Assembly (NCBI GenBank): GCA_020722315.1
Contig: DYLD01000004.1
Location: forward strand, 1-45,284
Origin: Syntrophus aciditrophicus
Lineage (GTDB): Bacteria; Desulfobacterota; Syntrophia; Syntrophales; UBA5619
DNA: 45,284 bases
Direction: 5' to 3'
Below, in pieces: positions 7,063 to 12,622 of this stretch; the first letter of the stretch is position 1, and each line of letters begins with the position of its first letter. The position numbers were made by a program, and so were the translations under genes. Under the pieces are notes generated by a model that did no database searches, was not told where the DNA came from, and was given only the letters and a program-made list of their open reading frames with translations.

Positions 7063-8460
7063 CTATGAATGACTGCGCCGGGTCCTTTGTTTTAATTCTT
7101 GATAAGTTTCTACCGTCAGAGATTTGCTTCGACAGGCAAGCAGCGTATTATTTTGGAACAGAGGCTCCTCCGCAATGGGATAGGGGGAGGATGCCACAGC
7201 TTCAGGCCACAGTGTGGTTTGCGGGATTGGTGAATATTCTGCCAGAATGGGACGCGCCCCAAATGATTGTACATATCGTATGCTTTCAGCGATTTCATCC
7301 GCGGGCTGTCCGGGTAGACCACATAAAAGGTAAATGCCTATATCATCGGAGGCATAGCCGGCCTTTTGGAGATTTTTTACAGCCTCCACAAACTCCTCAT
7401 TATTGACCTTTGCGCCCGTCTGTTTCTGTCTGAGTAGATTTGAGGTTTCAAAACCAAACCGAATCGTCTTAAAGCCCGCCTTATGCATCAGCATAGCTAT
7501 TTCTTCGCTGACTTCTCTTATGTGCAGACCGTTTGGGCAGTGAAAGTGCAAAGGGAGATTCCTTTTAATGATCTCTTTCAACATCGGGACCGCCATTTCT
7601 TGCGAGTCGACAAGCAGCGCGTCATCATAAAAAGAGAAATTCCTTATCCCGTAACGCAGGTACCAGTGTTCTATCTCATCGACGACATGACCGGGATTTC
7701 TTCGCTGAAATTTTGGGTGCAAAAGATATGAGGCGCAGTAACTGCATCTGTACGGACAACCCCAAGATGTCATGATCGGTAAACTTCCAGGTTTCTTGAG
7801 AAGGTCAAAAGAAGGGTAGGGGTATGAATCAAGATCGTCGGGGTCCGGAAGGATCTGGATATCAATCTTCAGGAGTTCTTTCAAAAGGGGGGGAACGGAG
7901 ACCTCACCTGCGCCGGGCAGTAAAAAATCAGCCCCTGATTTTGCTGCATGTTCCAAACATAATGACACGTAATTCCCTCCGATTACGACAGGAACTCCCG
8001 GATACACATGCCTTACGAAAGATATGGTATCAAATAGACCCGGGTACCAGTATGTCATCATCGCACTTATCAAGATTGCGTCCGGCCTTGGAATCTTTTT
8101 GAATCTGTTAAGCAGGATATTGGCGGTGAGGCCGTAACGATAAAAATTTCTGGGAATATCTTTCAAGGCCAGAGGCTTTTTGATCTTTTGTTTTGCGTAG
8201 GAACCATCTCCGTCAGGTTTTCTCTTTCCCATATGAATATTAGGTTCAAAAAGCATCGCGGGATCGTCTTCCAGAAAGTCAATAAATGTAACATTGATCC
8301 CGTTGCGGCGCAGAATTGAGGCAAGATAGAGAAGCCCCAGCGGCTTATACCAAAGGTCGTAGGCGGCGAAATCATGGATCCACGGGTTGATTAACAGGAC
8401 GCTTGGTTTCATGGGTGTTTTTTCTATCACATCCCGATATACGCCGCAATATCCAGTCAT
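7063..8460 (-). CDS. B12-binding-type radical SAM protein, function unknown
   Basis: A radical SAM enzyme binding a [4Fe-4S] cluster. The cluster motif CxxxCxxC is C235, C239 and C242 in WGCPYRCSYC. The N-terminal part (about 17-200) has the layout of a cobalamin-binding Rossmann domain as found in B12-dependent radical SAM proteins: VLLINPW near the start, PLGLLYLASILRRNG, then VVIGGNYVS and GEVSVPPLL. The usual DxHxxG base-off histidine motif is not evident, as in many of this class. The C-terminal part continues a TIM-barrel-like fold (FRFGFETSN, GLPGQPADEI). The reaction cannot be read from sequence; methyltransfer or rearrangement chemistry is typical of the class. The start at 8460 is uncertain: ATG 8412 (MKPSVLLINP) fits the family better, though neither has a good ribosome site. 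It is transcribed alone and away from the MerR-cyclase gene. Confidence 0.85.
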   Translation of the reverse strand: MTGYCGVYRDVIEKTPMKPSVLLINPWIHDFAAYDLWYKPLGLLYLASILRRNGINVTFIDFLEDDPAMLFEPNIHMGKRKPDGDGSYAKQKIKKPLALKDIPRNFYRYGLTANILLNRFKKIPRPDAILISAMMTYWYPGLFDTISFVRHVYPGVPVVIGGNYVSLCLEHAAKSGADFLLPGAGEVSVPPLLKELLKIDIQILPDPDDLDSYPYPSFDLLKKPGSLPIMTSWGCPYRCSYCASYLLHPKFQRRNPGHVVDEIEHWYLRYGIRNFSFYDDALLVDSQEMAVPMLKEIIKRNLPLHFHCPNGLHIREVSEEIAMLMHKAGFKTIRFGFETSNLLRQKQTGAKVNNEEFVEAVKNLQKAGYASDDIGIYLLCGLPGQPADEIAESIRYVQSFGARPILAEYSPIPQTTLWPEAVASSPYPIAEEPLFQNNTLLACRSKSLTVETYQELKQRTRRSHS

Positions 8461-8789
8461 TTATCCATCAATGGAGATAGGCAATAAAAAGTGCGGAATT
8501 CGTTGTAAATACCCTTGGGTGTTGGTCCTTCGGAAAATAAACTATTGGGAGATATTATACAGTCTAACTTGTTGTAATGTATGATTGTCCTCTTTGTCTT
8601 CTTTCTGAGTATTATACAGTTCAATTATATTGACAAAATGTCAACATTATGTAAGGATAATAACCAAAGTTTTTTTAGAACCGGTTTATCCTAATTAATT
8701 TTGCTTGTGATGTTCTCTTGCCGGAGAGGTTTTTGATAGCGTTGACGATCTTTTGTCGATTTCCCCTTTTTTGAAGAGGTGGTTCAACG
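8461..8789. promoter_or_regulatory. divergent intergenic control region with dyad and duplicated -10-like repeat
   Basis: No gene in this 329-base spacer. It contains a perfect inverted repeat TTGACA-AAA-TGTCAA at 8630-8644. A 15-base near-repeat, TATTATACAGTYYAA, lies at 8553-8567 and 8610-8624, 57 bases apart; read on the minus strand each copy contains TATAAT (8559-8554 and 8616-8611), facing the radical SAM gene, without a good -35 at normal spacing. On the plus strand TTGACA 8630-8635 is followed after 20 bases by GATAAT 8656-8661. That long spacer is typical of MerR-controlled promoters, though here the dyad overlaps the -35 rather than lying within the spacer. Assignments are inference. 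Confidence 0.4.
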
Positions 8790-9836
8790 ATGCGTGAAGA
8801 AAACGGTAAAACATGGATTACCAGTGCGGAACTTCAGGCCAAAACAAACATATCCCGTGCAACCATGAATAACTATATAAAAATGGGGATTATACCAAGA
8901 CCCGTGATCAAAAAGCCTGACGAGAAGCAGATCAAGGCTAAAAGGATTGGTTATTTTCACGATTCAGCCTTGGGCGCGATAAATCTAGTAAAACTTTATA
9001 AAAATCAAGGGCTTTCAATGAAAGAGATAAAGGAGCGGTTTCTTGGAGAAATCGACCGGAGCGAGAATCGTCAGGATCAGCTAAGCAGGAATAACAAAAA
9101 CCAAAGCGGGAATGAGTATCCGTCCGATCTCGAAGAAACCGTCAGGTCAGCGGTTCCGTCCTTTGTCAATGTTGCTGTACTGTCTACCTGTTTGGACGAC
9201 TCGGCGAAAATCCGTGCGGAGCTTCCAGGCGACGTTTATTTGAGTATTTTGATACGCTTACGTGGAATTGTTCAAGAGGTATGTCAGAATTACACGCGCC
9301 CAATTAGACAGAACTCGTCTGATAAGCTGTTATGGTATTTTGTTAAGGATCGAGATGATGGTTATCTTGCAAATGCTCTTGCATGCGCTGCAAAAATAAA
9401 GCAGCGGGTCGTTGATATGAACCGTCAGATGAAAAGCGATCAGCTGCTATTAAACGATATTTTTCTGAATATCGGGATATTTGAAGGACAAGAACATCTC
9501 GTTGTAGTTGCTTCCCCCGTTGCCGATGAAATACTGACCGCAGGAATTACCGGATCTTACGCTGAATTACTTTGTGAGGCAGGCAGGCGGGGATCAGTTT
9601 TAGTCTCAAAGGATTTTATCAATAAACTCGATGAAATCCAAAGGCAAAGGCTCAGGTACGGAATCCGTAAGCACATTGACGATTCGACTATTACGATCCA
9701 AAACACCTTTTCACGAATCAAGGATCTTTCGTTTCTGGATAAAGATCGTTACGAAAGGCTGGAGGAAATCCAAAATGTTGCTGTTGCTGAAATCTTGGAT
9801 TTTGGTGAGGAACCAACAAACCGGTCAAAAGGGTAG
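8790..9836 (+). CDS. MerR-type HTH regulator fused to a degenerate class III nucleotide-cyclase domain
   Basis: A 348-residue one-component regulator. Residues about 9-86 form a MerR-like winged helix: SAELQAKTNISRATMNNYIKMGII is the helix-turn-helix, then a wing, then GLSMKEIKERF, typical of the third MerR helix pair. After a polar linker (87-120), residues about 125-280 follow the class III adenylate/guanylate cyclase fold: FVNVAVLSTCLDD, NSSDKLLWYF, LNIGIFEG, AELLCEAGRRGSVLVS. The first metal-binding Asp is replaced (C134), the second appears kept (D178), and the Asn and Arg that stabilise the transition state are missing. The domain therefore probably binds a ligand or dimerises rather than makes cAMP. 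AAGAGGTGG upstream supports the ATG at 8790. It is divergent from the radical SAM gene, a likely target, and could also autoregulate. Confidence 0.78.
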   Translation: MREENGKTWITSAELQAKTNISRATMNNYIKMGIIPRPVIKKPDEKQIKAKRIGYFHDSALGAINLVKLYKNQGLSMKEIKERFLGEIDRSENRQDQLSRNNKNQSGNEYPSDLEETVRSAVPSFVNVAVLSTCLDDSAKIRAELPGDVYLSILIRLRGIVQEVCQNYTRPIRQNSSDKLLWYFVKDRDDGYLANALACAAKIKQRVVDMNRQMKSDQLLLNDIFLNIGIFEGQEHLVVVASPVADEILTAGITGSYAELLCEAGRRGSVLVSKDFINKLDEIQRQRLRYGIRKHIDDSTITIQNTFSRIKDLSFLDKDRYERLEEIQNVAVAEILDFGEEPTNRSKG

Positions 9837-9866
9837 AGGCTATTTTTAGGGAAAAATAAATATAAC

Positions 9867-10058
9867 GAGACCTTTGCGAAACTCCGCCTTGTCGCTCATA
9901 AAGCTTTTTCGACCCCGCGGCCTTTCGCTCAAGGCTTCAAAGGCTAAACGCTCTGGGAACGCTTACGTTCTTAACACCTTTAGAGCCTTGGGCTTCACGC
10001 CGGGGTACCCCGAAAAATCAATAAATTTGCGCTTCTGGCAGCCTTTTTCAAAGGTCTT
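9867..10058. repeat. MITE-like structured repeat element with inverted ends (copy 1)
   Basis: This non-coding block of about 192 bases fills the gap between two convergent genes. Its ends are inverted copies: GAGACCTTTG at 9867-9876 and, read on the minus strand, AAGACCTTTG at 10058-10049, each followed by A-rich sequence ending in GCC. Inside are a perfect palindrome CGGGGTACCCCG (10001-10012), a hairpin GAACG-CTTA-CGTTC (9957-9970) and a GCCTTT/AAAGGC pair (9920-9925 with 9939-9944). The right end recurs at the window edge (45230-45284) with 43 of 47 aligned bases identical, including a 24-base exact run. The run holds a near-consensus IHF site (10016-10028, AATCAA then four bases then TT). 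No transposase and no clear target duplication are visible. It may also end transcription from both sides. Confidence 0.72.
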
Positions 10059-10105
10059 ACTTTGTGTTTCATACGGCCATGAAGGTCTCAAAGAAACATC
10101 GGTTG

Positions 10106-12622
10106 TCAGAGAAAATGTTCCACAACGAGATTTCTTCCGTCCGTTTTCACCGTGACAGCTCCGTCATAATCGGTCCGATATACTTTTACCCCTTGGGAGG
10201 CATATCTTTTGACCGTTTCCCGATGAGGGAACCCGAAGACATTGTCTGATCCGCAACTGACAATGGCGATTTTGGGTTTAACCTTTTTCAGAAACTTGAG
10301 GCTGCTCGAAAAGCGGCTTCCATGGTGCGGGACGATAAGCACGTCGCTGTTCAAGTTCCAGCCGGATTCTATCAATTGGTTTTCGGCGTGCGACGAGATA
10401 TCTGACGTTAACAGCAAGCTTTTTTCTCCAAAAGAAAGCCTTATCACCAGCGATCGGTCGTTTTGTGTCGTGTGACGGATCTCCTTTGTTGCATCATCAC
10501 TGCCTGAGTTTGTGCAGTACGTATGATCTTTGCTTGGCGGGTTTAAAACCTTGAGCCGAACACCCGAGAAATCCCTTTCCGGTTCGTTGTTTGAAATAAT
10601 TTTCAGCTGGATATGCCTTTTTCTGATAATTTCTAGAAATGATGCGTATTGTTCGGTTGGTGCGTAATCACCATTACACCAGACCTCCCCGACCGTGAAA
10701 TTTTCGAGTATAAACAAAAGACCATTCAGATGATCTGCGTCGGGATGTGTCAGGACGACGGTGTCTATCGACGTGATTCTTTTATGCCAGAGGTATGGCG
10801 CCACAACGGTCTTTCCTATATCGAAGCTCTTATCGAAAAAACCTCCTCCGTCAACCAGCATCTTTTTCCCCTTTGGGAATTCCACTAGGATGCTGCTTCC
10901 CTGACCGACGTCTATAACCGTGAGAGAGAGGTTTTCTTGATGAATATCTTTTAGATAGGGGTAAGTCCAGCTTACCGTAAAGAAAAGCATAACAGCCAGT
11001 GGCGGTAACACGAACAGGAACGTGTTTGTTGTTTTCCTTTTGGTTGCGTTTTTGGATAAAAAATTCAGAACCAGGCCTGCCCATACCAACAAAATGTAAA
11101 AGGCTGCCACCTCCGCGATGCTTGGCGTGGGCACAAAAATTGAAGCCCAGGAAAAAGAGGCAAACCAGTCAATAAAATAGAGTGAAATTTTTACAAGCAG
11201 TTCTGCCAGGGAGATAATCAGGCCGGCCAGGAAAGATGAGACCGGCACTGCAACAACAATCGCCAGGGAAACCGGGATCGCAAGGATGCCGAGAATGGGA
11301 ACGCAAATCATGTTTGCCGCAATTCCGATCAATGGGATGCGGTTGAAATATAAGGTTATCAATGGCAGCGTTCCCAATGTCGCCGTCACTGAGGCGAGGA
11401 AAAAAATACCGAAACCCCTTAACGAGTTCTTGGCGATGATGATCAGTTTGCCCTTCATGCCCTGCGATGCCTTGTGTTGTACAATAGGCGGCAGAATTGC
11501 AATGAATTTAGGCATGAAAAATATCAGTGCGGCGACAGCAACGAAAGAAAGTTGGAAGGAGATCGCAAAGAGGGAATAGGGCGTTACAATCAGGATCAGA
11601 AACGCGGCAAAGGCCAAAATGTTGTAAAGATCTCCCTGTCTATCCAAGAGAAGCGCCGACAAGAATGCTGTTAGCATAATAGAGGCGCGTATAACAGAAA
11701 TCCCTGCGCCCGCGACACCTGTGTAAAAAATAACAACCAGGATAGACGAAACAACAGACAACTTGATTACGTTGAATCTCAGCAGGATATATTCGAAATT
11801 CAGCGCCAAACGTGCCAAAAAAAGTGCGAATGCCGCAACGATCCCGATGTTAAATCCCGAGATTGCAATAATATGTGTCAGCCCGGTTTTGTTAAATTTT
11901 TCCATTGTTTCGTTGCCTATCGCCTCTTGATTCCCCAGGATCATCGCCTGAATGATGCTCCCTTGGGTACCGGGCGATTTCACTGCGATTGTTTGGCGGA
12001 TGTTTTCACGGAATTGTGCCATTTTTGCCTTCAACGGATTTCCCTGTCCACGACGCAAAATCACATACGAAATTTCATCATTGAGAAACCCCCTGACCAG
12101 AATCCCTCGAAAGCGAAGGCCCCTTTCGTAATCAAAACCGCCCGGGTTTTTAAAGTTGCGTGGTTTTTTTAGACGTGCATGAAAACGGATAAAATCGCCG
12201 TATCGTAACGGTTGTTGACCATTCATGCTCAACAACACCTTTCCCGACACGTTACGGTAGTGTCCTTTTTCGAGCATCCTTGAGAGGCTGACCACGATGT
12301 ATGTTTTTTCAGGAGACACCTTGGGATTTTCAGAAATGACCCCTTCCGCGGTAATCTTTTTGCCATCAATACAGTGGACAATGTGGTTTGCCGGTATCGG
12401 TGGGTAAAGGTAAAGGTTGATCTCCAAAATCCCGAGAAAAAAAATACAAGCAAGAAACGCTTCGTAAACAAACGCCTCCTTTTTCAATAAGTGAAGGGAA
12501 AAAACCGCTACGAGCGAGGCGTTAAGGAAGGCCAAAACCAAAAAGTTATCAATAAACCAAATAGTTCCGCACCAAATACCTGCGATGAGAACCGCTGTCA
12601 TATCAACAAAAGGTCTTTTCAC
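10106..12622 (-). CDS. comEC: ComEC/Rec2 DNA internalisation channel protein
   Basis: Inner-membrane channel through which one DNA strand enters the cytoplasm in natural transformation. The 838-residue protein has the three-part family layout. An N-terminal DUF4131/OB-like segment (about 30-190) comes after two membrane helices. The multi-helix competence domain (about 220-520) contains HIIAISGFNIG and GAGISVIRASIM. The C-terminal metallo-beta-lactamase-like domain (about 565-838) has VIDVGQGSSILV, the metal motif HPDADH at 626-631 and VPHHGSRFSS near 770. The start is GTG 12622, supported by AAAGGGAAA upstream. It stands alone: comEA and other DNA-uptake genes are not in the window. It is divergent from pilS-pilR, whose target pili commonly take part in DNA uptake. 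Confidence 0.94.
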   Translation of the reverse strand: MKRPFVDMTAVLIAGIWCGTIWFIDNFLVLAFLNASLVAVFSLHLLKKEAFVYEAFLACIFFLGILEINLYLYPPIPANHIVHCIDGKKITAEGVISENPKVSPEKTYIVVSLSRMLEKGHYRNVSGKVLLSMNGQQPLRYGDFIRFHARLKKPRNFKNPGGFDYERGLRFRGILVRGFLNDEISYVILRRGQGNPLKAKMAQFRENIRQTIAVKSPGTQGSIIQAMILGNQEAIGNETMEKFNKTGLTHIIAISGFNIGIVAAFALFLARLALNFEYILLRFNVIKLSVVSSILVVIFYTGVAGAGISVIRASIMLTAFLSALLLDRQGDLYNILAFAAFLILIVTPYSLFAISFQLSFVAVAALIFFMPKFIAILPPIVQHKASQGMKGKLIIIAKNSLRGFGIFFLASVTATLGTLPLITLYFNRIPLIGIAANMICVPILGILAIPVSLAIVVAVPVSSFLAGLIISLAELLVKISLYFIDWFASFSWASIFVPTPSIAEVAAFYILLVWAGLVLNFLSKNATKRKTTNTFLFVLPPLAVMLFFTVSWTYPYLKDIHQENLSLTVIDVGQGSSILVEFPKGKKMLVDGGGFFDKSFDIGKTVVAPYLWHKRITSIDTVVLTHPDADHLNGLLFILENFTVGEVWCNGDYAPTEQYASFLEIIRKRHIQLKIISNNEPERDFSGVRLKVLNPPSKDHTYCTNSGSDDATKEIRHTTQNDRSLVIRLSFGEKSLLLTSDISSHAENQLIESGWNLNSDVLIVPHHGSRFSSSLKFLKKVKPKIAIVSCGSDNVFGFPHRETVKRYASQGVKVYRTDYDGAVTVKTDGRNLVVEHFL

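Follow-up and report, generated by a model that had tools for sequence, protein, structure and literature searches.

The window, a stretch of 45,284 nucleotides, carries on its plus strand a regulator gene (8790-9836) whose intact reading frame encodes a protein of 348 amino acids with a MerR-like HTH and a degenerate class III cyclase domain. Divergent to it on the minus strand lies a B12-binding/radical-SAM gene (7063-8460; Pfam Radical_SAM 6.4e-17, B12-binding 5e-11), the proposed target of the regulator, and the two form a conserved pair in Syntrophales. This divergent pair was found at 11 of the 21 Syntrophales loci examined, full-length HTH-LBD-cyclase members included. The usual Syntrophales order continues after the regulator with genes named by sequence reading as D-Tyr-tRNA deacylase, GuaB, DnaE, ApbE-like, and DnaJ. 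In the window the pair is kept and the remaining block lies approximately 25-32 kb away on the same contig, consistent with a rearrangement. Because the window gene sits within the divergent pair, full-length HTH-LBD-cyclase genes such as L008, L004, and L009 are its positional orthologs. A search of 155 Syntrophales genomes found the HTH gene in 24 of them and not in the other 131.

Directly 3' of the regulator gene is a dispersed, MITE-like repeat of approximately 190 bp (9867-10057) that is absent from Rfam, is bounded by terminal inverted repeats (GAGACCTTTG...CAAAGGTCTT), and has a strong predicted fold (z -4.6). The genome holds at least 41 matches to it, mostly 81-90% identical, a count based on scoring 40 of the 295 initial candidates. 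Part of a second copy sits at the far end of the contig (45231-45276), and assembly breaks may therefore fall in this repeat. An Rfam search of 8450-10200 found no RNA element.

The MerR-like winged HTH spans residues ~9-85 (ISRATMNNYIKMG...IGYF; 8814-9044, plus strand) and was delimited with an HTH profile, the AF2 model, and Pfam matches in relatives. It carries the conserved SRATxNNYI motif, a feature of family membership, and residues 1-90 scored 112.8 bits against an HTH profile built from catalytically intact relatives only. The Pfam MerR_1 score of the window protein is sub-threshold (15.8, cut-off 21.6), while relatives P0003, P0007, P0008, P0010, and L168 pass the cut-off. In the AF2 model the HTH comprises helices at residues 12-19, 23-32, 59-72, and 77-99 and strands at 39-41 and 53-57. 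Alignment and pLDDT identify a low-confidence linker at residues 86-120 (9045-9149, plus strand; pLDDT below 50 at residues 90-110), in the place where relatives carry an MmyB/PAS-like LBD of ~165 amino acids. An LBD profile search of the window protein returned no match, leaving this 35-residue linker instead, and Pfam likewise found no MLTR_LBD.

The degenerate class III cyclase domain covers residues ~121-340 (9150-9809, plus strand) and could be recognized only through relatives. Searches with the window protein alone (Pfam, NCBIfam, PDB sequences) found no cyclase, including no direct Pfam match to Guanylate_cyc, and gave weak HTH matches. A cyclase profile built from intact relatives only scored the C-terminus at 161.7 bits, compared with at most 5.9 for 500 shuffles. 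The AF2 model (pLDDT 87) matched solved class III cyclases in Foldseek (E 1.8e-11, 11-16% identity), with target TM values of 0.71-0.82 for cyclase-only chains and CyaC, Cya2, and CyaB as top matches. The initial annotation of this protein as a MerR-like HTH joined to a class III cyclase fold is thus borne out, the cyclase half being matched by both profile and structure.

The relatives themselves define a family with the order MerR-like HTH, MmyB/PAS-like LBD, and intact class III cyclase. This family is apparently undescribed, and searches of the open-licence literature turned up neither a MerR-HTH/LBD/class III cyclase family nor its operator. A search of relative genomes gave a match in 17 of 61, with full-length proteins of ~520-550 amino acids containing the HTH, the extra middle domain, and the cyclase. 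Pfam recognized Guanylate_cyc in all 44 full-length members and MerR_1 in 29 of them, with a weak match to MLTR_LBD in two of the 44 (6.4e-5), and the family profile matched CyaB at 1.4e-16. A scan of named genomes with a consensus member retrieved 272 relatives, the best 80 of which come from Desulfobacterota-type lineages and Beta-, Alpha-, and Gammaproteobacteria. The family is therefore spread over Thermodesulfobacteriota and the Alpha-, Beta-, and Gammaproteobacteria. The architecture had been called unusual on first inspection, a description that does not hold for the lineage: the window protein is a cut-down representative of a widespread HTH-LBD-cyclase family, most members of which retain the full set of catalytic residues.

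The gene directly after several intact members (L069, L098, L101, L107, L109, L055, and L067) is of the cNMP_binding-EAL, PAS-GGDEF-EAL, or PAS-HD type, and these neighbors link the cyclase family to c-di-GMP turnover. That the next gene in several encodes a second-messenger enzyme (cNMP_binding-EAL, GGDEF-EAL, or HD-GYP type) is in keeping with a signaling role for the intact relatives.

Residue alignment agrees with the initial calls that C134 (9189-9191) replaces the first metal-binding Asp, that the second, D178 (9321-9323), is kept, and that the transition-state Asn and Arg are missing; S256 and L260 stand in their place (9555-9569; all plus strand). The specificity Lys and its Thr/Asp partner are also replaced, by Q174 and L249, respectively. 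The six canonical positions, D-K-D-T-N-R in most relatives, thus read C-Q-D-L-S-L in the window protein (active-site string CQDLISL vs. DKDTDNR when intact), and D178 is the sole canonical catalytic residue left. The two halves of the protein have diverged to different degrees. Measured against seven intact relatives, the HTH has a mean identity of 0.47, compared with a range of 0.48-0.54 among the intact proteins, and the cyclase one of 0.30, compared with 0.68-0.74. In intact members the cyclase is more conserved than the HTH, an order that is inverted in the window protein and in other degraded members. The window cyclase is under relaxed constraint and the HTH is not.

Similar erosion is seen elsewhere in the family. 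With "catalytic" defined by four strict residues (two Asp, Asn, and Arg), the 96 two-domain members comprise 82 with an LBD and an intact site, 5 with an LBD and a damaged site, and 9 that lack the LBD. The catalytic residues are therefore intact in 82 of 87 LBD-bearing members and in none of the nine LBD-less ones, each of which has lost at least one. The association over all members is strong (Fisher p 1.5e-9). The named-genome set is biased toward full-length members, and among Syntrophales genomes only the association holds at 11 LBD-bearing intact, 2 LBD-bearing damaged, and 9 LBD-less damaged members (Fisher p 2e-4). A phylogenetic pairs test provided three firmly supported pairs, of which two to three were concordant (p about 0.25). 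Because these supported events are too few, we describe the loss of the LBD and of catalytic residues as a strong co-occurrence in which dependence is not proven. Parsimony requires at least six changes of LBD state, few of them firmly supported in a tree with long branches; the window protein has a branch length of 4.36 changes per site, and support for its exact position is lacking.

Damage to the active site spans a single residue (L002, D to E) to all of them (L013). The relatives L016, L168, and L169 keep the HTH without any cyclase, and DNA binding therefore appears to be the core retained function. L168 (genome G473) and L169 (G333) are HTH-LBD proteins of ~280 amino acids that have wholly lost the cyclase domain and kept the sensor. 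One genome (G286) encodes a paralogous full-length pair, L171 and L173, in which the LBD is present and the catalytic residues are damaged in both.

Upstream of family genes a palindrome recurs in the form TTATACAGTATAA or TTAGACAGTCTAA, with the consensus TTRKACWGTMYAA. With up to one mismatch allowed, this consensus occurs in 87 of 96 upstream regions, those of Beta- and Alphaproteobacteria included, at 187 sites where 0.78 would be expected. After duplicate loci were removed, 179 such sites remained in 43.9 kb around regulator starts, compared with 19 in 972 kb of flanks, and enrichment of the consensus upstream of family genes is about 200-fold. The family positions are regular: site A lies ~20 bp upstream of the start of the TTGACA, site B lies 12-13 bp downstream over the -10, and the two are 33 bp apart. 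These positions led us to reject, as a rule for the family, the classical MerR mode of activation, in which the operator lies within a long spacer. The link between operator and HTH is one of co-occurrence only, and the HTH presumably binds the operator.

The window promoter keeps part of this arrangement. A predicted distal operator, TTATACAGTCTAA (8555-8567), is the sole exact match to the consensus in the 3.02-Mb genome, and a predicted operator A, TTATACAGTTCAA (8612-8624), has one mismatch and lies at the family position, 18 bp upstream of the -35 start; both are unstranded. The putative -35 of the regulator gene, assigned by its consensus-level TTGACA (8630-8635), is followed after a 20-nt spacer by a -10-like GATAAT (8656-8661), both on the plus strand. 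Site B, which normally covers the -10, is absent at the window promoter, where the upstream sites alone are kept, and regulation may therefore have changed or weakened. The -35 also lies inside a second palindrome, TTGACAAAATGTCAA (8630-8644), that was not seen in relatives and could be a site for another regulator.

Exact operator sites number 38 in the 24 Syntrophales genomes with the gene, and no fewer than 33 of these lie at its locus; the 131 genomes without the gene contain roughly 50, scattered. In the window genome, one-mismatch sites number eight in all, with six loci outside the regulator locus, which is at or below control (26). We rejected a multi-gene regulon because the exact site occurs at the regulator locus alone and one-mismatch sites do not exceed the control. 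Elsewhere, a cluster of three exact operator sites (G098:C220:2997-3064) was found in a 68% complete genome in which the regulator gene was not detected, the gene probably being cut off or missing from the assembly.

We favor, with moderate confidence, a reading in which the window protein is a single-locus, self-regulating DNA-binding protein that uses its dead cyclase as a dimer scaffold. The ancestor would have been a one-component sensor-cyclase-regulator in which a MerR-like HTH was followed by an MmyB/PAS-like LBD and then by a class III cyclase, predicted to be active, and the HTH would have bound several TTRKACWGTMYAA palindromes surrounding the protein's own promoter. In intact relatives the LBD would sense a ligand, the cyclase would make cAMP, and the protein would control its own transcription. 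The window lineage would then have deleted the LBD and lost from its cyclase the residues for metal binding, base recognition, and the transition state, with the HTH and the operators remaining. The window protein would most likely work as a dimer joined through the catalytically dead fold, and its control would be limited to the intergenic region (8461-8789), acting on the regulator itself and on the divergent B12/radical-SAM gene. Since the HTH and operator remain constant at every stage of erosion, the retained function is taken to be DNA binding at the protein's own locus. The initial annotation had offered a sensor or a dimerization domain as the role of the cyclase fold. The pattern of divergence agrees better with a dimerizing scaffold, since the cyclase fell to ~30% identity while the HTH stayed constrained. 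The analysis gave no evidence of nucleotide sensing by the dead fold, and the probable sensor of the family is the separate LBD, which the window protein has lost. The LBD-bearing intact family, the operator, and the divergent partner gene go beyond what that annotation described.

The same remnants could be read as a receptor, in which the dead domain binds a nucleotide or cyclic nucleotide and so controls DNA binding in a one-component, nucleotide-responsive manner. The fold and the second metal Asp, D178, are kept, and a cyclic nucleotide ligand is plausible because the window genome encodes another apparently intact, CHASE2-like cyclase (FSDIRGFT, KYIGDAI, GDNVNLASRLE) and two cNMP-binding-domain proteins. 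The mycobacterial Mclx2 and Mclx3, also without the canonical residues, have been proposed to bind or respond to a ligand (PMC4452763). We nevertheless consider a receptor unlikely: the first metal Asp, the base-recognition Lys and Thr, the Asn, and the Arg are all lost, and degenerate members share no replacement pattern (CQDLISL, RTGCSER, RYTLETG, AKHNGSY, and others), a variety expected of loss and not of one conserved new ligand site. That the domain is instead an active cyclase, using unusual residues to make a cyclic nucleotide by itself or in a heterodimer with another cyclase, strikes us as very improbable. Base-recognition residues do vary among class III cyclases and one metal Asp is kept; however, with the Asn, the Arg, and the other metal Asp gone, neither half-site of a homodimer would work. 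Beyond this protein the genome encodes a single cyclase, a 749-amino-acid, homodimer-type protein that is complete in itself, and we therefore judged a heterodimer with it unlikely.

Loss on this scale could also mark a pseudogene in progress, its pathway no longer needed, its sensor and catalysis lost, and its HTH not yet decayed. The drop in cyclase identity to 0.30, the loss of promoter site B, the further truncation in a related genome (L016, 163 amino acids, without a cyclase), and the absence of the gene from 131 of 155 Syntrophales genomes would all agree with decay. Yet the 348-codon frame is intact, the 161.7-bit match to the intact profile and the confident fold need selection on core residues, the HTH is as constrained as in intact relatives, the operators are retained, and LBD-less forms are stable in nine genomes. 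Decay is accordingly a poor prospect in our view, and the self-regulating, scaffolded DNA-binding protein remains our preferred reading.

On a broader scale we offer a more speculative proposal, which we hold only tentatively: that the family is an undescribed, widespread group of transcription factors producing a second messenger of their own, sensing through the LBD, making cAMP, and controlling their own promoter by a conserved operator. In Syntrophales they would have been turned repeatedly into sensor-less, cyclase-dead regulators of the divergent B12/radical-SAM gene, some of which might use the dead site to read a nucleotide. In such proteins a cyclase is joined directly to a promoter, and in the intact relatives a single polypeptide would tie the synthesis of a second messenger to transcription of its own gene. 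The reduced members line up as a natural series, from intact through one lost residue and the loss of all residues to deletion of the cyclase, and so reveal which part the protein cannot do without; the operator makes the system testable with a 13-bp site and one purified protein. The series is also a warning against annotating such genes as adenylate cyclases.

Among published proteins the closest analogues are Mclx2 and Mclx3, cyclase-LuxR proteins of mycobacteria that are without the canonical catalytic residues and are regarded as regulators (PMC4452763). Like the Mclx proteins (Rv0386, Rv1358, and Rv2488c), members of the window family carry both a DNA-binding HTH and a class III cyclase homology domain on a single polypeptide. 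Mclx proteins have a C-terminal LuxR-type HTH with an AAA/NB-ARC domain between, neither of which Pfam found in the window protein, whereas the window family has an N-terminal MerR-like HTH with, ancestrally, the MmyB/PAS-like LBD between. Mclx proteins are also nearly confined to Mycobacterium, while the window family occurs in Proteobacteria and Thermodesulfobacteriota with a visible operator. As in the MerR family, a winged HTH is followed by a helix, and several relatives exceed the MerR_1 cut-off, but the window family lacks the MerR effector domain and has the cyclase fold in its place. A MerR operator is one long dyad within the 19-20 bp spacer that separates the -35 and -10, whereas the operator of the window family is 13 bp and brackets the -35. 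The fold is shared with the class III adenylyl cyclases CyaB, CyaC, and Cya2 (3r5g, 1wc1, and 2w01), and the intact relatives keep all catalytic residues; unlike these enzymes, the window protein is without catalytic residues and is fused to an HTH. The MmyB-like MltR (3pxp), which held a fatty acid (PMC3406030), resembles the family in combining an HTH and a PAS-like LBD, but its HTH is of the XRE type and it has no cyclase, while the window protein has lost the LBD. Like the Mclx group, the window protein is best described as a one-component regulator built on a cyclase or pseudo-cyclase.
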